Positions 42,769 to 49,517 are shown, counted from the stretch's first letter. The stretch is 64,000 bases of DNA from Anaeromyxobacter dehalogenans 2CP-C (GCF_000013385.1 NC_007760.1:4438001-4502000), one strand, 5' to 3'. The notes: generated by a model not told the origin, from the sequence alone. Program-made: numbers and translations.

Positions 42769-43079
42769 ACGGGGCTCCAATGTGGGCCTGCGGGTCCCCC
42801 CGGTGTCGCGCCCGGGCAGTAAACGATCAACGTCGCCACCGGGGACCCCCTCACAAAGCCGGGGCATTCGCGGACATCCGGTGCCTCGGCGGCTCGGCCA
42901 CGCCCCGGAGCCGTTCCCGCCTGCGGGCGAGGTCCTGGGGGCGGCCCCGCAATCACCCGCACCGGCCGTCACGGGAGCGCGCACCGTCCTTCCACTCATC
43001 GAGCGCCCTCGCCGCGGCCCTCGCGCGTGCCCTCGCGGCACGCCTCCGCCCGCGCCGAGGACGGCGACGGGAGGATGCC
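42769..43079. other. divergent intergenic region, nothing recognised
   Basis: Between the penicillin-acylase gene (leftward) and the subtilase gene (rightward). It should contain two promoters; no convincing operator or promoter was found by eye. Confidence 0.45.
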
Positions 43080-46000
43080 ATGACGTCTCCCCTCCGCTGC
43101 GCCGGCGTGATCCTGAAGCTCCGTCCCGGCGCCGCACCGGCCTTCGCCGCCGTGGCGCGGCGCGCGCTCGGCGACGGCCTGGAGCTGCGCCCGCTGTTCC
43201 CGAACGCCGCCGCGTCCCGCGGACTGGGCGCCGCGCCCGCCCAGGCGGAGTGGGCGCTCGCCGCGTTCGAGGGCGAGCCGCGCGAGGTGAACGGCTGGGA
43301 GGAGGCCTACCGCACCGTCGAGCGGCTCGGCCTGGGCGCCGCGGGCGGCGCGGTGGAGTACGCCGAGCCCGATCTCGTGCAGGCGTTCCCGGCCTTCCCG
43401 CCCGGCGAGGCGGGCGCGCTCGCGGCCGGCGCGCGAGGCCGCCGGCGAGGGCGCCGGCGCCACCATCCTGCACGCGGACACCGGCTACTCGGCGCACGGC
43501 ACGACGCCGGCGGCCCTGGCGGAGGCGTACGCCCGCGACTTCGAGGGCGGCGGCGAGCGGAAGGGCGCCCTCGATCCGGGCCTCGACGGCCTGCTGCGTC
43601 AGCCCGGCCACGGCACCGGCACGATCTCGATCCTCGCCGGCAGGCGGATCCCCCAGCTCGCGAACGACTGGCTGGGCGGCGCCCCGGCCGCAGAGGTGAT
43701 CCCGGTGCGGATCGCGAACTCGGTGGTGCTGTTCCGGACCAGCGCCCTGGCGCGCGCGCTCGACTACGCCCTGCGCCCGTACACCGGCGACGACGCGGCG
43801 CACCCGGGCACCGTGCATCGGCCCGTGGACGTGGTGACGCTGTCGATGGGCGGCGTCGCCTCCCGCGCCTGGGCCGAGGCGGTGAACGCCGCCTACGAGG
43901 CGGGCGTGTGCATCGTGGCCGCCGCGGGGAACAACTTCGCGCTCGGGCCGTTCGGCGTGCCCACCCGCTTCATCGTCCACCCGGCGCGCTTCGGGCGCGT
44001 CATCGCGGCTTGCGGGATCATGGCGAACTGGCGGCCCTACTTCGGCCTGCCCACCGGCAAGATGCAGGGCTGCTGGGGACCGCCCGGCAAGATGGCGACC
44101 GCGCTCGCCGCCTTCACGCCCAACATGCCGTGGGCGGAGATGGGCGCGCCGCAGGTCGTGGACATGAACGGCGCGGGGACGTCGTCGGCCACGCCGCAGA
44201 TCGCGGCGGCCGCGGCGCTCTGGATCGCGGCGCACCGGCCCGCGCTCCAGGCGCTGGCCGAGCCCTGGCGGCGGGTGGAGGCGGTCCGCCACGCGCTCTT
44301 CACCAGCGCGGAGCGCCCGTCGGATCCCGAGGTGGCGGAGAAGGTCGGGCGCGGCGTGCTGCAGGCGCGGGCCGCGCTGGCGGTCGCGCCGGTCGCGGAC
44401 CTGCCCATGACCCCGCGCGACACCGCCTCGCTGTCGCTGCTCCGGGTGCTCACCGGCCTGGGCGCGGCGCCCGACGCGCGCCTGGAGATGCTGGCGCTCG
44501 AGGCCACCCAGCTGACGCAGCTCCCGGTGGCGGACGCCACGCCGAATCCGTTCGAGGCGCTGGTGCCGGATCCGGACGCCGCCGCGGCGGGGCTCTCCAC
44601 CGAGCGGCTGCGCCAGGTGGCGGAGGCGCTCCTCGATCACCCCCGCGCCTCGGCGCCGCTGCGCGCGCACCTCTCGCGCGTCCGCCAGGACCTGGGCGGC
44701 GCCCGGCCCGCCCCGCCGCCTGCGCCGCGCCCGCCGGCCGCCGCGATCCCCGCGCCGGCGCCCGGCGCCCCGGCACCGCTCGCGCCCGAGCCGCCGCGCC
44801 CGCTCCACCGGCAGCTCACCGCGTTCGCGTTCGATCCGAGCGTGGCCCAGCGGCTCGACACGCGCGACATCGGCACGGTGACGCTCCGCGTCCCCTGGGA
44901 GCCGCTCGCGCCCGGGCCGGTGGGCGAGTACCTGGAGGTCGTGGACGTCGATCCGACCAGCCAGCGCTTCTACGCGCCGGTGGACCTCGACCACCCGCAC
45001 CTCCTCGCGCAGCAGGGGCTGGCGCCGTCGGAGGGCGCGCCGCAGTTCCACCAGCAGATGGCCTACGCCGTGGCGAGCCTGACCATCGACCGGTTCGAGA
45101 AGGCGCTGGGCCGGAAGGCGCTCTGGTCGCCGCGCGAGCTGCCGGAGCGCCCGCAGGACGACTCCACCTACGTGCCGCGCCTGCGCGTGTACCCGCACGC
45201 GCTCCGCGAGGCGAACGCCTACTACAGCCCGGCGCGCAAGGCGCTCCTGTTCGGCTACTTCCGCGCCTCCGAGGAGGACCCCGGCGATCACCTGCCCGGC
45301 AGCTTCGTGTTCACGGCGCTGTCGCAGGACATCGCCGCGCACGAGACCGCCCACGCGCTCCTCGACGGCATGCACCGTCGGTTCAACCGGCCCACGAACC
45401 TGGACATGCAGGCGTTCCACGAGGCGTTCGCCGACGTGGTGGCGCTGCTCCAGCACTTCACGTTCCCGGAGATCGTGCGCGACCAGGTGGCGCGCACCCG
45501 CGGCGCGCTGCGCACGCAGGCCAACCTGCTCGGCGCCCTGGCCACCGAGTTCGGGCGCGCCATGGGCACGCGCGCGGCGCTGCGCGACTACATCGGGCGC
45601 CGGGACCCGGTCACCGGCGTGTGGGCCCGGCACGTCCCGGATCCGGCCGAGTACGAGCAGGCGCGCGAGCCGCACGCGCGCGGCGCGATCCTGGTCTCGG
45701 CGGTGTTCGACGCGTTCCTCTCCATCTACGAGCGGCGCACCCGCGACCTGGTCCGCATCGCCACGGGCGGCTCGGGGGTGCTGCCGGCCGGCGACCTCCA
45801 GCCGGACCTCGTGAACCGGCTGGCGGAGGAGGCGGCACGCACCGCCGACCAGGTGCTGCGGATGTGCATCCGCGCGCTCGACTACTGCCCGCCGGTGGAC
45901 CTCACCTTCGGCGAGTACCTGCGCGCGCTCGTCACCGCCGACCGCGACCTCGTGCCGGACGACGACCTGGGCTACCGGCTGGCGTTCGTCGAGGCGTTCC

Positions 46001-46653
46001 GGCGGCGCGCCATCTACCCGCGCGACGTGCGCACGCTCTCCGAGGACGCGCTGCTCTGGCGCGGTCCGGTCTCCGAGCGCGGCGTGGGCCCCTCGCCCGC
46101 GCTCGTCGAGGCGTTCGCGGCGCTGCGCCCGCACGCGCGCAGCCACCTCGACGCGAGCTCGCGGGAGGTGCTGTTCCACCGCGCCCGCGCGCTCCGGGCG
46201 ATGCTGCACGAGCGCCTGAAGGCGGTGCTGGCGGCGCAGCCACCCGGCTCGGACGACGCGCTCCTGCTCGGGCTAGACCTCGAGGCGGCGCCCACGTTCC
46301 AGGTGCACTCGGCCCGCTTCGCCGAGCGCATCGGACCCGACGGGCAACACCTGCCGCAGTGCATCGTGGAGCTGCTGCAGCACCGCGACGACGCGCGGAG
46401 CGCGGCGCGGCCGGACCTCGGGCCGGTGCGCTTCGAGGGCGGGGCCACGGTGGTGGTGGCGCTCCGGGAGGGCGACGGCGAGGCCGCGGCGCTCCGCTGG
46501 GTCATCCGCAAGTCGCTGCGCAGCGCCTCGCGCCTGGAGCGCCAGGTCGCGTTCGGCCAGAGCCGCGCCACCGGCTCGGGCTGGGACACCTACTTCGGCG
46601 CGCGCGCCCTGAAGACCGGGGTGGAGCCGTTCGCGGCCATCCACCGCAGCTAG
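43080..46653 (+). pseudogene. subtilase (S8) fused to gluzincin-like metalloprotease, with frameshift
   Basis: Begins ATG 43080 (MTSPLRCAGVILKLRPG), with a propeptide-like region to about 43425. The frame then shifts by one base inside a GGCCGGCGCGCGAGG stretch (43425-43440), where the second frame continues EGAGATILHADTGYSAHG (catalytic Asp), QPGHGTGTISILAG (His), SMGGVASRAW, AAAGNNFALG and NGAGTSSATPQIAAAAAL (Ser): a complete S8 triad. From about 45290 a second protease domain begins, AAHETAHALLDGM (HExxH) and FHEAFADVVALLQHF (third Glu), a gluzincin arrangement. Total about 1190 residues. No signal peptide is evident. It lies 24 bp ahead of the metallo-beta-lactamase-fold gene. The frameshift may be a mutation or a base-call error. 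Confidence 0.72.
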
Positions 46654-46677
46654 CCCGGGGCAGGGAGAGGAGACGCC

Positions 46678-48204
46678 ATGCGAGCGAACCGGAAGGCGAC
46701 GGCGGCGAAGGGCAGCGCGCGCAGGACCGACGGCAGGCACGCGGCGCGCGACGAGGTGGTCGAGCGCCCCGCGCATCGCGGCGGGCGCGAGGGCGGCGCG
46801 CCGCGGGTGCGGGTGCGCATGTACCGGCCCGGCCTGGGCGACTGCTTCCTGCTCACGTTCCAGCCGGACACGGCCGACGAGGCCCACGTGCTCGTGGACA
46901 TCGGCACGGTGGGGCGGGGGGCCGGGGTCCCCATGGAGGAGATCGCGCGGGACGTCGCCGCGGTGACCGGCGGCCGGCTCGCCGCGGTGGTCGCGACGCA
47001 CGAGCACGCCGACCACCTCTCCGGCTTCCCGCTCCTCGCGGACGCCGGCGTCACCGCCGGCGAGGCCTGGGTGGCCTGGACCGAGGATCCCGCCGACCCG
47101 CTGGCGCGGCAGCTCCAGAAGTACCGCGGCGACCTGTTCGCGGCCGCGGCGCAGGCGGCCGCCGCGCTCGACGCCGCGCCGCGCGAGGGGCTGCTGGGCG
47201 TGCTCCGGGCCGGGGTGCGAGACCTCATGGCGTTCAACGGCTTCCTCCCGGGCGCGGCCGGCGCGTCGCTCGGCGCCGCCGCGAAGGGCGGCGGCCTGAA
47301 GAAGACCATCGACGCGATGATGCGCTCGGCGCTCGGGCTCGCGCGGCGGGGCCCGCGGTACCTGTCGCCGGGCGACGTCCTGGAGCCGGCCTGGGCCCCG
47401 GGCGTGCGCGTGTACGTCCTCGGCCCGCCGCGCGACGAGGCCGCCATCCGGCAGCTGGGCGGCCACGGCTCGCCGGACCTGTACGAGCTCGCCGCCGTGC
47501 TGGGCGTGGAGCTGCCGGGCACGCCCGGGGGACCGGCCGCGGGCGGGCCGGTGCAGCCGTTCGACGCGGCGCTCGGGGTGCCGCTCGACCGGGCCGGCGC
47601 CCTCGGCGGCGTGGCGGCGGCGTACGAGGCCGAGCCGTGGCGCCGCATCGACGAGGCGACGCTGGGGGCCGCGGCGGAGCTGGCGCTCCAGCTCGACAAC
47701 GCGACCAACAACACCAGCCTCGTGCTCGCGATCGAGGCCGGCGGCGAGGTGCTGCTGTTCCCCGGCGACGCGCAGCTCGGCAGCTGGCTGAGCTGGCCGG
47801 ACGTGACGTTCGCGGTGGACGAGGGCGGGCGGCGCCGCACCGTGACCGGCGAGGACCTGCTCCGGCGCGTCACGTTCTACAAGGTCGGCCACCACGCCAG
47901 CCACAACGCGACCTCGCGGCCGGGGCTGGAGCTGATGTCCGGCCGCAACCTCACCGCGTTCATCCCGCTCGACGAGGGCGTCGCGCGGCGGCGCGAGTGG
48001 CCCATGCCGGCCCGCACCCTGTTCGCGGCGCTGACGGAGAAGACGCGCGGGCGCGTGCTCAAGTCGGACGGGGACGCCGAGCAGGCTGCGCTGGCGCTGG
48101 CCGGCGTCTCGGTGGAGCGGCTGCACGTGGAGACCACGCTGCCGCTGGAGGCGCCCGCCGGGGCGCGGGAGCGGGCCGCGCCGCGGGCGCGCGCGCACGC
48201 GTGA
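46678..48204 (+). CDS. metallo-beta-lactamase-fold hydrolase
   Basis: A 508-residue protein with the MBL signature THEHADHLSG (His108, His110, Asp112, His113), LVDIGTVG as first strand, NATNNTSLVLAIE and LLFPGDAQLGSWL, and KVGHHASHNATS near the end, as in ComEC-like MBL hydrolases. An insertion of about 200 residues separates the first motif from the later ones. The basic N-terminal 40 residues are low complexity. ATG 46678 with ggagaggag upstream. It follows the subtilase-gluzincin gene by 24 bp and probably forms an operon with it; the joint function is not known to me. May hydrolyse a phosphodiester or ester (inference). Confidence 0.78.
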   Translation: MRANRKATAAKGSARRTDGRHAARDEVVERPAHRGGREGGAPRVRVRMYRPGLGDCFLLTFQPDTADEAHVLVDIGTVGRGAGVPMEEIARDVAAVTGGRLAAVVATHEHADHLSGFPLLADAGVTAGEAWVAWTEDPADPLARQLQKYRGDLFAAAAQAAAALDAAPREGLLGVLRAGVRDLMAFNGFLPGAAGASLGAAAKGGGLKKTIDAMMRSALGLARRGPRYLSPGDVLEPAWAPGVRVYVLGPPRDEAAIRQLGGHGSPDLYELAAVLGVELPGTPGGPAAGGPVQPFDAALGVPLDRAGALGGVAAAYEAEPWRRIDEATLGAAAELALQLDNATNNTSLVLAIEAGGEVLLFPGDAQLGSWLSWPDVTFAVDEGGRRRTVTGEDLLRRVTFYKVGHHASHNATSRPGLELMSGRNLTAFIPLDEGVARRREWPMPARTLFAALTEKTRGRVLKSDGDAEQAALALAGVSVERLHVETTLPLEAPAGARERAAPRARAHA

Positions 48205-48227
48205 GCGGCGCGCGTGCCGGGGTGGGA

Positions 48228-48264
48228 CCCCACGGACCCTTCGGCAGGCTCTGGGTCCGTGGGG
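48228..48264. terminator. bidirectional hairpin, repeat-related
   Basis: 12-bp perfect arms CCCCACGGACCC and GGGTCCGTGGGG around TTCGGCAGGCTCT. The loop is close to the TTCGACAGGCTCA loop of the repeats in addB, so the hairpin may belong to that family. It lies between the convergent MBL and FadL-like genes, right for a shared terminator. Confidence 0.6.
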
Positions 48265-48284
48265 CGGGGCGCAGCCCCGTCGGA

Positions 48285-49517
48285 TCAGAACCGGTGCGCG
48301 AAGCCCACGTCGAGCGTCCACGCCGTGAACGTGGTCTCGTACGCGGCGATCCCCTGCGCGAGGTTCGACCCGGTCTGCTTGCCCTCGGGCGCATAGGTCC
48401 CGCCGACGCTCACCGAGGTGCGGCCGAGCTCGAGGCCCACGCCCGCGGTGACGTGGTGCTCGAGCACCGCCGGGAAGGCCAGGTTCTCGAGCGCGCGGTC
48501 CGCGTTCAGCGGGCTCTTGCCGTAGTCGTAGCCGGCGCGGAGCTTCAGCCAGCTCGCCGCCGCGTACTCGGCGCCCACCTTCAGCACCCACTGGTCCGAC
48601 CAGTCGAGGTCGAGCTGCATGCCGCCGGTGAGCGCCGGGTCGGTCTGGAGGCGCGGCTGGTTCCGGCCGTTCGTCTGCGACCAGCGGATCCACTGCACGT
48701 CGGCGGCGACGGCGAGCCCCGCCACCGGCCGCACGCCGACGCCGAACGTCAGGAGGTCGGGCTGATCGAGCTCGAGCTTCTCGACGCCGGGCCCGACGTT
48801 CGCGGTGGTGCCGGTGGCCGGGTCCACCACGATGGTGTGCGCCGGGACCTCGTACTCGAAGTCCTGGAACCAGCCGCGGCTCTCGTAGGCGAGGCCGGCG
48901 GTGAGCCACTCGACGGGCCGCCAGGCGGCGCCCACGGTGAAGCCGCCGCCGTAGGAGATGGCGCCGTCGCGCGGCTGCAACCCGAGCCCGCCGCCGGCGG
49001 AGTACTCGAGCGTCGCGTACATGATGTTCGCCGTGACGCCGAGCGAGAGCCCGGGCATCACCTCGTACGAGACGCCCGGCGCGAGCCGGAGCTGGGAGTA
49101 GGACGTGTACAGCCGGCCGCCCAGCAGGTCCTGCGGGTAGTCCACGCCGAGGCCGGCGACGCCGTAGCCGCCCAGGCCGAACGTGAGCCGGTCGCCCAGC
49201 GGGACCACCAGGCCGAAGCCCGGGATCAGCGTCGGGCGGCGCGAGGAGGTCTGCTCCTGCCCCGAGGCGGCGCCGACCGCGCGGTAGCGCACGTCCGCGT
49301 CGAGGACGGTGATCCCGAAGTCCACCCGGCCGTCCAGCAGCGACAGGCCCGCCGGGTTGGTGATCACGGTGGCCGCGTCGAGCGGGAGCCCCACCGACGC
49401 GCCGCCCATCGCGCTCTGCACCGGCCCGAAGCCGATCATGCGCATCCCGTTCACCGCCCCTGCCTGCGACGCCCACAGCGCGAGCGCCGCGGCGACGATC
49501 CACCTGTTGCCGGTCAT
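48285..49517 (-). CDS. FadL/OmpP1/TodX-type outer-membrane transport protein
   Basis: A 410-residue protein with a signal peptide (WIVAAALALWASQAGA) and the family's opening MRMIGFGPVQSAMGGASVGL and ITNPAGLSLLDGRVDFGI. The rest is amphipathic beta strands ending in FAHRF, a C-terminal Phe as needed for barrel insertion. It should form a 14-stranded channel carrying hydrophobic molecules such as long-chain fatty acids or aromatics. Start ATG 49517 with agggaga upstream. In its leader are a hairpin (49573-49598) and a GGTCACCGTGACC palindrome. Confidence 0.87.
   Translation of the reverse strand: MTGNRWIVAAALALWASQAGAVNGMRMIGFGPVQSAMGGASVGLPLDAATVITNPAGLSLLDGRVDFGITVLDADVRYRAVGAASGQEQTSSRRPTLIPGFGLVVPLGDRLTFGLGGYGVAGLGVDYPQDLLGGRLYTSYSQLRLAPGVSYEVMPGLSLGVTANIMYATLEYSAGGGLGLQPRDGAISYGGGFTVGAAWRPVEWLTAGLAYESRGWFQDFEYEVPAHTIVVDPATGTTANVGPGVEKLELDQPDLLTFGVGVRPVAGLAVAADVQWIRWSQTNGRNQPRLQTDPALTGGMQLDLDWSDQWVLKVGAEYAAASWLKLRAGYDYGKSPLNADRALENLAFPAVLEHHVTAGVGLELGRTSVSVGGTYAPEGKQTGSNLAQGIAAYETTFTAWTLDVGFAHRF

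Follow-up and report, generated by a model that had tools for sequence, protein, structure and literature searches.

What could have brought two proteases, a subtilase and a thermolysin-like gluzincin, together with a ComEC-type metallo-beta-lactamase (MBL)-fold hydrolase in one small locus of Anaeromyxobacter dehalogenans 2CP-C? In the window, by which the whole 64,000-nucleotide stretch analysed here is meant (GCF_000013385.1 NC_007760.1:4438001-4502000, with positions counted from its first letter), two genes follow each other on the plus strand, the first coding for a prodomain-like region, a subtilase with its Asp/His/Ser residues and an M4/M36-type gluzincin (HETAH...E), and the second for the MBL. 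We think it fairly probable that the pair represents a horizontally moving, cytoplasmic, protease-triggered immune module of the abortive-infection kind, directed against phage and working as a protease-gated nuclease. What is read from sequence, as the basis of this module, is that its proteins belong to known fold families and have their catalytic residues, that the two genes are paired and co-diverge, and that the pair is mobile and keeps company with defence genes.

A discrete cassette with a frameshifted protease gene

In a genome scan, the best match to the window locus outside the window itself came from Anaeromyxobacter sp. PSR-1. In a sister genome whose FadL neighbour is 95% identical (G001), the same flanks lie only ~103 bp apart, compared with the interval 42933-48286 (plus strand) that separates them in the window, and for this reason the gluzincin-MBL pair can be regarded as a discrete cassette of ~5.35 kb, which is exactly what the sister strain lacks. 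The difference between the two strains reflects either a gain in 2CP-C or a loss in its sister, and the patchy presence of the pair (the gluzincin occurs in three of nine Anaeromyxobacter genomes) favours a gain. The cassette holds just two genes: no sensor gene was seen in the window, no defence gene directly adjoins the cassette, and it contains no LmuB SMC gene, so that the placing of LmuB beside LmuA that marks Lamassu is not found here. Its neighbours, penicillin acylase-like and FadL-like by sequence, are metabolic. The stop codon of the protease gene and the start codon of the MBL gene are 24 bp apart, and the purine-rich GGGAGAGGAG ahead of the latter is a plausible ribosome-binding site.

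Does the first of these genes encode a dual protease in one piece? The sequence-only reading of this locus had described it so, and it was right about the subtilase triad and the gluzincin motifs, both of which are there, but not about their forming one intact gene in this strain. The N-terminal prodomain-like region (43080-43430, plus strand, frame 3) ends in EYAEPDLVQ, with E-P-D kept in 17-18 of 18 homologues; since it has no Pfam match, the term prodomain denotes a putative assignment. The subtilase (S8) domain that follows (43468-44355, plus strand) matches PF00082 Peptidase_S8 (E 3.6e-14; 53.2 bits against a cut-off of 21.8) and thus belongs to S8, in a gene that is frameshifted in the window. 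Its Asp lies in LHADTGY (43468-43488), its His in PGHGTGT (43603-43623) and its Ser in GTSSATP (44176-44196), a triad that is invariant in 18 subtilase homologues. The frame opened by the ATG at 43080 differs from that of the subtilase and gluzincin, which runs to a stop at 46653, and comparison with the PSR-1 copy places a frame-shifting deletion of 101 nt near 43430-43441 (plus strand), just 5' of the catalytic Asp codon. In PSR-1, the gene of which is split over two contigs (L012 and L001), the deletion point is read through in one frame. In the window gene, the downstream frame has no ordinary start codon before GTG 43696, which lies 3' of the catalytic Asp and His. A single intact dual-protease gene in 2CP-C is therefore rejected, and because of the nucleotides missing relative to PSR-1, the subtilase half is probably broken in the window genome; as this half is frameshifted, the module as a whole is probably impaired there. 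The claim that no signal peptide is visible fared better: inspection by eye shows none at the N-terminus, where the window gene product and the PSR-1 copy, MTSPLRCAGVILRLRPG, are almost the same. As an aside, a subtilase related to that of the window is fused to a caspase domain in a Saprospiraceae MAG (L025:8609-11266), a locus in which no gluzincin or MBL of the window's families was found.

The gluzincin domain

Downstream of the subtilase, motifs, alignment and structure match together delineate a thermolysin/fungalysin-like gluzincin domain with an M4/M36 fold (44761-46050, plus strand). It contains HETAH (45340-45354), the distal Glu in HEAFAD (45418-45435) and a His in PHARGAIL (45670-45693), and D190, H194, E195, H198, E221, D225 and H305 are invariant across 42 gluzincin homologues. 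The AlphaFold2 model of the gluzincin protein (pLDDT 84) matches fungalysin with Z 18.0 and thermolysin with Z 15.1 over residues about 17-430 (VIA-align), so that the features of the M4/M36 superfamily, i.e. HExxH, a distal Glu in an NEAxxD-type motif, the transition-state His and the fold, are all present. A Foldseek search of the same model against PDB and viral structures gave no significant match. Standard profiles hardly recognise the family: the gluzincin of the window protein has no Pfam or NCBIfam match, Pfam gives weak matches in five (M4) and two (M36) of the 42 gluzincins (best E 0.0017), and a profile search puts the motif in line with that of thermolysin at an E of only 0.06-0.15. 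According to the model and the alignment, the protein ends in a further domain, helical and then antiparallel beta (46051-46653, plus strand), which is kept across the family. Phage and viral collections yielded few gluzincin relatives (two records in one search and two in another), for which reason a mainly phage gene family was rejected; two IMG/VR viral contigs (L048 and L049) carry relatives near their ends.

The MBL protein and its candidate gate

That an MBL-fold gene begins after the 24-bp gap had been read correctly. Its ORF (46678-48204, plus strand) is intact, and the product, a ComEC-type MBL-fold hydrolase and predicted pro-nuclease, matches PF00753 Lactamase_B (E 2.5e-8) and bears HEHADH (within 46996-47016), GDAQ (47764-47775) and GHHASHN (47887-47907), its active-site residues and metal ligands being intact and invariant across the family. 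The best match of its model is the MBL domain of ComEC (Z 23.3, with 256 of 266 residues aligned, model residues 41-493), relative to which it has insertions, partly disordered (residues 194-205, 262-301 and 315-328), that follow the HxHxDH motif and precede the NNTSLVL strand. Loop 1 (47257-47292, plus strand; residues 194-205, pLDDT under 50) is a candidate gate; loop 2 (47461-47661, plus strand), made up of low-confidence segments within residues 262-328, holds Pro294-Phe295 (47557-47562) as a candidate cleavage or gate motif. Pro294 is conserved in 40 of 40 sequences and Phe295 in 90%, with most neighbouring positions of loop 2 at about 20-30%, and loop 1 has no residue as conserved as these two. 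As the loops are modelled only as disordered, the model offers no more than a candidate loop-gated active site, and the Pro-Phe motif could instead be structural. When PADLOC profiles were run on 40 MBLs, all 40 matched LmuA, 26 RTasMBL and 18 Avs1a; in the window MBL, the similarity to LmuA and Avs1a covers only residues 44-117, a short part near the N-terminus, and the Avs1a equivalog cut-off of 420 bits is not reached by its 30 bits. A divergent branch annotated as 'serine protease' plus 'metallohydrolase' (L033:8869-12041 and L045:6815-9969) keeps the pairing and has an MBL with a shorter loop that lacks the Phe.

Pairing, distribution and genomic company

Is the adjacency of the two genes more than accidental? 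One genome scan produced 25 loci in Pseudomonadota, Bacteroidota, Acidobacteriota, Planctomycetota, Actinomycetota and Anaeromyxobacter, several of them in MAGs whose labels may be wrong, and a plasmid collection produced 70 records, 20 of which were inspected; several Rhizobium/Agrobacterium loci in the sample are close relatives. An MBL gene lies directly downstream, on the same strand, in 41 of the 43 inspected gluzincin loci with room for a next gene (the exceptions being L009 and the truncated L024), an outcome that bears out the conserved adjacency proposed earlier as a check. The divergence of the gluzincin is correlated with that of the MBL (r = 0.90, Mantel p 0.0005, 39 loci), to which shared ancestry contributes. 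As far as sequences can tell, the pair is a horizontally mobile cassette and not an accidental adjacency. Its conserved core we read as gluzincin plus MBL, the subtilase being an optional fusion: on the tree, the fusion needs only two changes, and many of the subtilase-fused loci consist of two genes only. About half of the loci lack the subtilase and still have the MBL, on which ground the subtilase was rejected as the core of the pairing, and the dual protease gives way to the gluzincin as the MBL's partner. The pair of L008, a locus labelled as a Spirosoma MAG, is nearly that of Falsiroseomonas (L010), which makes the bin label doubtful.

What company does the pair keep? By clustering, patatin-like phospholipase genes lie near it in 10 loci (Pfam patatin E 8.5e-18 in L002) and DUF2235 genes in six, some of either kind at a distance, and PLD-like and S1/P1 nuclease genes also adjoin or lie near gluzincin-MBL pairs. 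LmuB-like SMC ATPase genes occur near the pair in L028, L035 and L005, directly upstream in the former two, and a bacterial gasdermin gene (PDLC02986, E 2.2e-16) stands directly upstream of the gluzincin in a single locus, L016. This gasdermin (L016:9065-9913) comes from an Acidobacteriaceae MAG; within 8 kb of it there are another two MBL genes, and a downstream gene of 495 aa shows a lipase-like HSLGSYL motif by eye. CBASS, Hachiman-type DUF1837/helicase genes, DarT/macro and SIR2 are found within a few kb of pairs, although at several loci the vicinity is free of defence genes. Altogether 127 PADLOC families were matched by 110 sampled neighbour proteins, as against 19 by 110 control proteins sampled far away on seven of the same plasmids (E up to 1e-15), a comparison that is coarse because many models describe one gene, families rather than independent proteins being counted. 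With CBASS, Hachiman, gasdermin and LmuB-like genes among the neighbours, the proximity to defence genes that had been anticipated is indeed seen. Large neighbours of about 1,300 aa do not cluster together and were rejected as a common third component. A recurrent protein with apparent transmembrane segments lies at or near the pair in four loci (L020:2161-2865, L022:14187-15422, L030:13807-14712 and L031:13692-14591), with no Pfam or PADLOC match among those scanned, and related putative lipoproteins of no known family adjoin it in two (L008:2354-3751 and L021:13826-15202).

A putative protease-gated nuclease and its rivals

Protease-gated nuclease defence is the best explanation of the pair because its parts match, a catalytically complete protease standing beside a ComEC-type MBL with disordered insertions. 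From these parts we infer cleavage, nuclease activity and a role in defence, which might be connected as follows. Infection or damage would switch on the protease; where the two proteases are fused, as in the window, the prodomain-bearing subtilase may be the upstream initiating protease or, alternatively, a second effector, and at other loci a separate sensor, for example the SMC-like ATPase, may act as the trigger. The gluzincin would then cut the disordered loops of the MBL, by which the active site of this partner would be covered. Thermolysin-like enzymes prefer hydrophobic P1' residues, which makes the conserved Pro-Phe of loop 2 a candidate cut site. Membrane attackers that vary from locus to locus (gasdermin, patatin and other lipases) may be activated by the gluzincin as well. 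Once unlocked, the ComEC-type MBL would degrade DNA, and the cell would die or stop growing before the phage could spread. A bolder version, which we put forward tentatively and consider doubtful, envisages an immune family that crosses phyla and works through a relay of two proteases, in which an autoinhibited cytoplasmic subtilase switches on the fused thermolysin-like protease, and this in turn the ComEC-type pro-nuclease and, at loci that have one, a gasdermin or lipase; if true, bacteria would here have a proteolytic cascade with a logic like that of initiator and executioner proteases.

Could the roles be distributed differently? The killing might be done by the proteases, through degradation of proteins of the host or the phage, with the MBL as a regulator or sensor that restrains them, for example by sensing or removing a nucleic acid or nucleotide signal. 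The catalytic residues are all kept in both protease and MBL, and many loci have two genes only and no other sensor, which speaks for this scheme; however, the family profile of the MBL is that of known immune effector nucleases and the precedent runs from protease to nuclease, and we hold such an exchange of roles to be improbable. It is also rather poorly probable that the membrane-attacking neighbours (patatin, DUF2235, PLD, gasdermin and the transmembrane protein) are the true, gluzincin-activated effectors, with the MBL as an accessory second one: bacterial gasdermins are protease-activated (PMC9079055) and that of L016 sits directly upstream, and patatin-like and DUF2235 genes recur (in 10 and six loci), but such genes vary between loci and many loci, that of the window among them, do without any, in contrast to the MBL, which is hardly ever missing.

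The metabolic neighbours in the window and the several loci with no defence gene nearby would suit a pair that processes proteins or peptides in ordinary metabolism and has no immune role, a reading made very unlikely by the mobility and patchiness of the cassette, its defence-island neighbours elsewhere and the family to which the MBL belongs. DUF2235 and patatin proteins are, as is generally known, also lipase effectors of the T6SS, and one might accordingly picture an interbacterial toxin or T6SS-type effector locus that delivers lipases and proteases to rivals; yet no VgrG, PAAR or secretion gene adjoins the inspected pairs, no signal peptide was seen by eye and the surroundings are those of intracellular defence systems, all of which leaves this alternative with scarcely any probability.

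If protease-gated nuclease defence is the correct reading, proteolytic activation of immune nucleases would extend to a third unrelated protease class, the metallopeptidases, with the subtilases as an optional fourth, and two known protease-triggered routes to death, MBL nuclease and gasdermin, would be joined in one modular family. The result would be a compact two-gene system with an explicit candidate cleavage motif. Because the protease escapes the profiles of Pfam, NCBIfam and PADLOC, a combined gluzincin and MBL profile would be useful for finding such loci.

Comparison with known systems

No system with this exact pair was known to the sequence-only reading, and the literature on gluzincin/patatin/MBL conflict systems likewise does not appear to describe it, apart from one related study whose supplement may hold the clade (Tuck et al., Science 2025, PMC12799240); that same study, however, provides a precedent for protease-activated gated MBL pro-nucleases. 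According to its main text, the ComEC-like MBL nucleases of Hachiman and AVAST are made as proenzymes whose active site is blocked by insertions until a trypsin-like partner protease cuts these, caspases cut gated MBL nucleases in canu loci, and nuclease homologues also occur beside other protease families, which the main text does not name. Bacterial gasdermins, too, are switched on by neighbouring proteases, caspase-like or trypsin-like in the known operons (PMC9079055). L016, with its gasdermin gene immediately before that of the gluzincin, resembles these operons and differs from them in its protease, in one case only. With thermolysin (M4) and fungalysin (M36), the gluzincin shares the fold and the full set of catalytic residues, but it is apparently cytoplasmic, has an extra C-terminal domain and is hardly recognised by Pfam. 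As in Lamassu (LmuA/LmuB), the MBLs match PADLOC LmuA and an LmuB-like SMC ATPase lies near the pair in three loci; in contrast to Lamassu, LmuB is missing from the window and from most loci, and the gluzincin is not in PADLOC.

The Canu (caspase-nuclease) systems, as presented in the main text of the 2025 study, are likewise small loci in which a protease gene of its own precedes that of a gated MBL nuclease; there, however, a caspase with an Ig-like domain takes the place of the gluzincin with or without subtilase, and Gly that of the candidate Pro-Phe in the loop (PMC12799240). With the gated pro-nucleases described there for Hachiman (HamM), AVAST type 1 (Avs1a), Lamassu and DRT, the pair has in common a ComEC-type MBL with disordered insertions, an adjoining protease, co-divergence, horizontal spread and a defence context. 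In contrast to theirs, which is trypsin-like or a caspase, the protease here is thermolysin-like, with or without a subtilase, and is not fused to HamA, Avs or LmuA; the order is protease, then MBL, and the MBL is larger (about 450-540 aa). Because the class of the partner protease differs, the pair is not filed as a member of the gated MBL pairs described in that main text; we read it instead as a variant with a thermolysin-like protease, the closest known mechanism being that of the gated MBL pro-nuclease (PMC12799240).
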